Shown here: positions 55,680 through 55,960 of the stretch, in pieces | Layout of the letters: every line of letters begins with the position of its first letter | How positions within the stretch are numbered: position 1 is the first letter of the stretch | NCBI GenBank assembly: GCA_030651305.1 | Contig: JAUSCI010000014.1 | Span: 1-64,000, forward strand | Origin: Sulfuritalea sp. | GTDB lineage: Bacteria > Pseudomonadota > Gammaproteobacteria > Burkholderiales > Rhodocyclaceae | DNA length: 64,000 nt | Reading direction: 5' to 3' | Notes under the pieces: model-generated | The model's input: the letters and a program-made list of their open reading frames with translations, nothing else | Told to the model about the DNA's origin: nothing | Database searches by the model: none | Program-made: the position numbers and the translations under genes

Positions 55680-55749
55680 CGAGGTCAGCGAACCAGTCAC
55701 CCCCTTTCCTGGAAAGGAGGCGGGGGGATCGCCAAAACAGTTCGCCCGC

Positions 55750-55862
55750 AGGGCTTTCATTTTTGGCGTCGCCAAAAAATAAAAGCCCTCGACCAAAGGG
55801 GAGGAGGTCGAGGGCGAAACACCTTGAAAAGTTCAAGGCACCCGCTCAGGGAGGTAAGCGGG
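55750..55862 (+). ncRNA. Candidate structured RNA / hemB leader with alternative hairpins
   Basis: AGGGCTTT...AAAGCCCT hairpin overlaps GCCCTCGACC-loop-GGTCGAGGGC; followed by CCTTGAA-aag-TTCAAGG and CCCGCT-cagggaggta-AGCGGG. Confidence 0.55.
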
Positions 55863-55960
55863 AGACAGCGCGAACGAAAGTCCGCCACCATCTGCTTACT
55901 ATGATAGCCCGTATGCGTTAAAGTTCAAGTAATTTTCGAAAGTTTCTCAGGACTAAGCCA

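Follow-up and report, generated by a model that had tools for sequence, protein, structure and literature searches.

A new member of the anti-hemB small RNA family between engB and hemB in Sulfuritalea sp., with a predicted sigmaE-type promoter and a proposed counterpart in ErsA

Related small RNAs already described

The best characterized relative of the RNA described here is ncS04 of Burkholderia cenocepacia J2315, which corresponds to the Rfam family anti-hemB (RF02837). This RNA of 105 nt has a start mapped by dRNA-seq and a RACE-confirmed 3' end, is flanked by BCAL0264 and BCAL0265, the three being oriented <- -> <-, co-purifies with Hfq, and exhibited no significant change under the conditions of Table 2 of that work (PMC5688073, PMC4603805). 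Based on the matching orientation and on the arrangement of two Burkholderia loci (L120 and L121), BCAL0264 and BCAL0265 are probably the hemB and engB genes. In B. pseudomallei, anti-hemB is included in a list of trans-acting RNAs (PMC3521395). In the literature searched we found no functional study of anti-hemB and no description of an envelope-stress (sigmaE) sRNA of betaproteobacteria, and the main text of the motif survey by Weinberg et al. (2010) does not mention hemB.

Several other sRNAs serve for comparison. ErsA of Pseudomonas (RF01719) is AlgU-dependent and represses algC and oprD (PMC5819304). In Xanthomonas, sX13 (RF02232) is encoded downstream of polA, acts without Hfq, and represses by means of C-rich loops and G-rich sites near translation starts (PMC3771888). 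The enterobacterial RybB and MicA are repressor sRNAs driven by sigmaE promoters, an arrangement like that proposed here, the Salmonella rybB and micA promoters having the -35 element GGAACTTTT and the -10 element GTCAAA (PMC1804206); they are encoded at other loci, and their Rfam families have no match in the 64-kb stretch of Sulfuritalea sp. DNA analyzed here (the window). The betaproteobacterial double-hairpin 'toxic small RNAs' (RF02278, ncS27) and Bordetella S17 also have unpaired segments, rich in C and U, that are complementary to ribosome-binding sites, and pairing with Shine-Dalgarno sequences has been proposed for ncS27-type RNAs, but these are shorter RNAs from another locus and another Rfam family, to which the window has no match at the gathering score.

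Identity, strand and structure of the sRNA

The features of the region between engB and hemB are as follows.

55062..55679, plus strand: engB/yihA-type GTPase gene (PF01926), a neighbor in most homologous loci
55744..55764, plus strand: terminator-like GCCC-GCA-GGGC-TTTCATTTTT 3' of engB, found in the sequence and absent from the results of the terminator pattern scan
55750-55789: inverted repeat 1, AGGGCTTT...AAAGCCCT
55785-55794/55806-55815: inverted repeat 2, GCCCTCGACC/GGTCGAGGGC
55822-55828/55832-55838: inverted repeat 3, CCTTGAA/TTCAAGG
55841-55846/55857-55862: inverted repeat 4, CCCGCT/AGCGGG
55774..55893, minus strand: anti-hemB-type sRNA gene of about 120 nt (RF02837, model R1, minus-strand fold)
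55774..55815, minus strand: Rho-independent terminator, GCCCUCGACC, C-rich loop UCCUCCCCUUU, GGUCGAGGGC, then UUUUAUUUUUU (sequence, covariation)
55822..55838, minus strand: middle hairpin CCUUGAA-CUU-UUCAAGG (helix 3, covarying)
55841..55862, minus strand: hairpin with loop UACCUCCCUG, an anti-Shine-Dalgarno-like seed (54-homologue alignment)
55864..55892, minus strand: 5' hairpin of the sRNA, which has G.U pairs and so forms on the minus strand only (folds, covariation)
55900..55928, minus strand: sigmaE/AlgU-type promoter, TTGAACTT (55928-55921), 16 nt, TCATA (55904-55900)
55961..56971, plus strand: hemB, delta-aminolevulinic acid dehydratase (PF00490, E 1.5e-136), divergent from the sRNA

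The identity of the sRNA is near certain. At curated cut-offs the window contains a single Rfam match, to RF02837, which runs from 55865 to 55777 on the minus strand, covers positions 1-81 of the 81-position model, and scores 63.6 bits against a cut-off of 49.5. The match is thus above the cut-off and full length, and it lies on the opposite strand between hemB and engB. Our own covariance model, R1, built from homologues within the order, matched from 55899 to 55778 with 91.4 bits. The RNA is therefore of an already known kind, of which the window supplies a new member. The start of the sRNA was placed about 7 nt past the -10 box and its end at the T-tract. Further RF02837 matches in the same genome (contigs C79, C43, C54, and C14; 22-26 bits) were rejected as chance or unrelated C-rich hairpins, no Rfam family being matched there at its gathering score. 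The closest named relative of the adjoining HemB comes from a Rhodocyclaceae genome (87% identity).

The window sRNA shares with RF02837 and ncS04 its sequence and structure, its hemB and engB neighbors, its orientation, and its length class. It differs in that its first loop is one base short, its 5' hairpin is longer and paired differently, its C-rich terminator loop has CCUCCUCCCC, and it has a sigmaE-type promoter, whereas Burkholderia lacks a clear one.

The four inverted repeats were present in the sequence at the coordinates given by an earlier, sequence-only reading of this region; a repeat search also returned repeats 1-3, the 6-bp repeat 4 being below its length limit. The minus-strand RNA of the 118-nt stretch folds with -56.1 kcal/mol (z -7.4 relative to dinucleotide shuffles) and the plus-strand RNA with -42.0 kcal/mol (z -3.7), so that the hairpins exceed chance expectation on either strand. 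An alignment of 54 homologues (A1; 27 modeled pairs) served as an independent means to assess pairing. In 14 of the 27 pairs both sides have changed with pairing kept, including all five modeled pairs of the 5' helix; none of 500 shuffles attained any of five covariation measures, and the signal was lost when partners were slid. The pair cells of A1 hold 132 G.U and only 7 A-C combinations, a ratio which indicates the minus strand, since the complementary strand would read each G.U as an A-C mismatch. The sequence CCUCCCU lies in the loop of the first stable hairpin in all 54 homologues. Read from 55815 to 55774 on the minus strand, the last hairpin has the form GCCCTCGACC-loop-GGTCGAGGGC-TTTTATTTTTT, the T-tract TTTTATTTTTT following directly. 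Fold, covariation, G.U to A-C ratio, and T-tract together indicate that the sRNA is transcribed away from hemB.

These results contradict a reading of the region as a cis-acting leader of hemB on the plus strand, in which alternative hairpins would sense heme, delta-aminolevulinic acid (ALA), or CsrA. The plus strand also folds and hemB begins about 100 nt downstream of the hairpins, which favors such a leader, but the conserved structure favors the minus strand, it is that strand which has the better fold, the promoter, and the T-tract, and the Burkholderia homologue maps to the strand opposite hemB. We regard the leader as hardly credible. What stands of the sequence-only reading is a structured, covarying RNA beside hemB, as well as its statement that a hemB-associated RNA of betaproteobacteria was on record, which is RF02837; the Rfam and covariation checks that it called for gave the minus-strand match and the double changes described above. 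The GGAGG loops that it offered as sites for CsrA or for anti-Shine-Dalgarno binding are lacking from the RNA strand, where the loops read CCUCCC and CUCC/UCC, and with no GGA motif in the transcribed loops a CsrA/RsmA-binding leader was rejected. Sensing of heme or ALA has likewise no basis, since the RNA is read from the other strand, diverges from hemB with a promoter and terminator of its own, and is also found away from hemB.

Two of the hairpins had been thought mutually exclusive. The 54 homologues keep three hairpins, the palindrome at 55750-55789 being the exception. The terminator-like plus-strand hairpin 3' of engB converges with the sRNA terminator, and their joined T-tracts form this palindrome. 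It recurs with altered letters in the same-genus locus L067 and is absent from loci L064 and L070, which therefore have no competing hairpin. Two overlapping convergent terminators are a better explanation than a switch and would suffice to account for the palindrome. A separate hairpin directly 3' of engB, GTCACCCCCTTTCC-TGG-AAAGGAGGCGGGGGG (55688-55732), is an intergenic, dispersed element, of which the genome has at least two other similar copies (L002, C43:109924-109963; L003, C46:8260-8325).

Promoter and gene neighborhood

The promoter of the window sRNA is the only site of sigmaE/AlgU type in the window. Its -35 element is TTGAACTT rather than GGAACTT, and it can also be read in a sigma70-like manner as TTGAAC-16-TATCAT. 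Upstream of the RNA, 57 of the 61 homologues from the order have GAAC(T/C)-N17..19-TC..A, compared to 0.2 expected from shuffled upstream sequences, whereas the sigma70 consensus occurred 3 times in the same sequences, compared to 2.1 by chance; sigma70 was accordingly rejected as the conserved promoter. The consensus across homologues is of the sigmaE/AlgU type, GGAACTT-N16/17-TC(T/A)NA. The anchored columns read GGAACTT, with GAAC in 59 of 59; in 55 of 58, TC has an A after it at the fifth position. GAAC and TC are favored by the anchoring itself, the flanking G, TT, and A being independent of it. Among upstream sequences of homologues outside the order together with ErsA, 13 of 27 gave a strict and 21 of 27 a relaxed sigmaE-type match.

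The pattern tracks taxonomy. Of 54 named loci, 20 have a strict and 30 a relaxed match, the strict site being found in Rhodocyclaceae, Gallionella-type, and Nitrosomonas-type loci, with GAAACTT in Paucimonas, Keguizhuia, Paraburkholderia, and Pandoraea. Among the same loci, Burkholderia has no clear sigmaE-type site, and the site is absent from Comamonadaceae-type loci, which carry TAAATT/TAAAGT-like boxes instead (L081, L086, L089-L095, L098, L111, L113, and L141), a replacement that suggests a switch of sigma factor. To judge from these sequences, a sigmaE-type promoter with lineage-specific loss in Comamonadaceae and Burkholderia appears to be new as far as the literature searched shows. 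One homologue (L029) has no GAAC box at all; it follows engB on the same strand and possibly has another mode of transcription. In close relatives, the -10 element of the sRNA (55899-55904 in the window) lies within CTATCATAG and reads TATGAT towards hemB, and the divergent sRNA and hemB promoters may thus overlap there.

The genome itself encodes rpoE (316.6 bits), followed by open reading frames that we named by eye as RseA-like and RseB/MucB-like. Its rpoE gene and related ones are preceded by a similar (T/G)GAACTA -35 and GTC -10, the candidate promoter of its own rpoE ending in GTCAGT; the pattern used was relaxed in the last base, and the similarity to the sRNA promoter is thus only supportive. 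Control of the window sRNA by sigmaE is predicted from these motifs.

Most genomes searched have an RF02837 match at E <= 1e-3: 120 of 150 in the order and 58 of 61 in the family. The fetched stretch contained hemB in 53 of 61 homologous loci, divergent from the RNA in all 53; conversely, the RNA lay upstream of 54 of 80 named hemB genes, always on the opposite strand, and these loci include Comamonadaceae without an adjacent engB. At three loci (L015, L029, and L031) the RNA is beside engB and the fetched stretch has no hemB, and at L027 and L030 it adjoins neither gene. The latter loci belong to two genomes (G033 and G078) with two tandem copies each; elsewhere we observed four tandem copies at L174 and two each at L159, L160, and L169, mostly with a sigmaE-type promoter for each copy.

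At the level of the class, 88 of 274 genomes matched RF02837 at E <= 1e-5, and 14 exceeded the cut-off. Among 20 such loci outside the order, engB is nearby in 13, polA in 10, and at least one of them in 15; R1 found all 20 (best match of each, E 3e-13 to 4e-6). The family thus reaches well beyond Burkholderiales, mostly beside engB and/or polA, which is new as far as the literature searched shows. What persists beyond Burkholderiales is the loop, the place beside engB or polA, and in many cases the promoter, and the name anti-hemB is therefore probably misleading.

Proposed mechanism and relation to ErsA

The explanation that we consider likely is a trans-acting sRNA between hemB and engB, started by sigmaE, whose C-rich loops block ribosome-binding sites under envelope stress. 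It draws on the strand, structure, terminator, neighbors, and conservation observed here, and on the transcript ends and Hfq co-purification of the Burkholderia homologue; sigmaE control, ribosome-site blocking, the targets, and common descent with ErsA we infer. RNA polymerase with sigmaE (RpoE) would start the sRNA at about 55893, and the transcript would fold into four hairpins and end at the Rho-independent terminator at about 55774. The exposed C-rich loops UACCUCCCUG and UCCUCCCCUUU would imitate the anti-Shine-Dalgarno tail of 16S rRNA and, aided by Hfq (hfq is present in the genome), base-pair with the purine-rich ribosome-binding sites of target mRNAs, whose translation would thereby fall during envelope stress. 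The 3' tail of 16S rRNA reads GAUCACCUCCUUU; both loops resemble it, which makes pairing with Shine-Dalgarno regions a natural mechanism. With the terminator loop, 29 Rhodocyclaceae porin starts gave a mean of -7.9 kcal/mol compared to -4.9 for hemB and -3.2 for engB, these controls being unmatched for ribosome-site strength and two porin start calls (L234 and L243) doubtful. The porin starts (L214-L243) mostly have a GAGGAGA-type ribosome-binding site, complementary to the C-rich loops of the sRNA, and a MQKKLIALAVAG-type start.

The same trans-acting sRNA might instead be transcribed by housekeeping sigma70 from TTGAAC-16-TATCAT, its expression then being constitutive or growth-controlled rather than dependent on envelope stress. 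That site matches the consensus at 9 of 12 positions, the -10-like boxes of Comamonadaceae homologues and the lack of a clear sigmaE-type site in Burkholderia would fit, and ncS04 showed no stress response under the conditions listed; the last point is weak evidence on this organism, however, precisely because Burkholderia lacks a clear site. The fixed spacing of GAAC and TC..A in Rhodocyclaceae and many other lineages, together with the chance-level frequency of the sigma70 consensus, makes this alternative unlikely. We consider it quite improbable that the RNA is an antisense-strand cis regulator of hemB, acting by divergent transcription or by pairing with a long-leader hemB message. In betaproteobacteria hemB is its constant neighbor, also at loci where engB lies elsewhere, and in close relatives the -10 within CTATCATAG is readable in both directions, but no consensus promoter on the hemB strand was found that places the hairpins in a hemB leader, and some homologues accompany engB/polA in the absence of hemB. 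Hairpin 2 keeps the same stem and loop from genus to genus, a constancy more in keeping with many targets than with a single one.

By analogy, we propose that anti-hemB, as a trans-acting sRNA, represses translation upon induction by envelope stress and is thus to betaproteobacteria what ErsA is to Pseudomonas. At the ErsA locus examined (L206), the gene is downstream of polA with the promoter TTGAACTT...GTCATA, the same type as that of the window sRNA, AlgU being the counterpart of sigmaE. Its position is that of many gammaproteobacterial RF02837 homologues; the window shares engB, a polA neighbor being found among RF02837 homologues only outside the order. ErsA also has a C-rich loop before its terminator, as does the window sRNA. 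The ErsA covariance model had no match in the genome (E 1e-4) or at the locus (E 1), and R1 had none at L206. The link to ErsA rests on place, promoter, and the bridging matches of one genome (G377), in which a four-copy array is matched by RF02837, RF02232, and RF01719. Two other genomes (G289 and G439) have places matched by both RF02837 and RF02232. Like the kin of anti-hemB, sX13 has C-rich loops, on three stems, and a place downstream of polA; R1 reached only E 0.15-0.48 against it, its loci (L208 and L209) lack the sigmaE-type site of the window sRNA, and it reportedly needs no Hfq.

Common descent of the three is plausible, although C-rich loops could converge. Tentatively, and with slightly less credence than we give to its opposite, anti-hemB, ErsA, and sX13 may represent one ancient engB/polA-side sRNA of Beta- and Gammaproteobacteria, originally driven by sigmaE/AlgU and bearing an anti-Shine-Dalgarno-like hairpin loop, which would have switched sigma factor in Comamonadaceae, Burkholderia, and Xanthomonas and multiplied elsewhere. 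The apparent engB/polA link of anti-hemB to ErsA and sX13 is new as far as the literature searched shows.

The correction of the strand changes the whole reading of the region upstream of hemB. An almost unstudied Rfam family gains a concrete hypothesis, that of a betaproteobacterial envelope-stress (sigmaE) sRNA comparable to ErsA, which predicts its inducer, its chaperone, and its pairing site.
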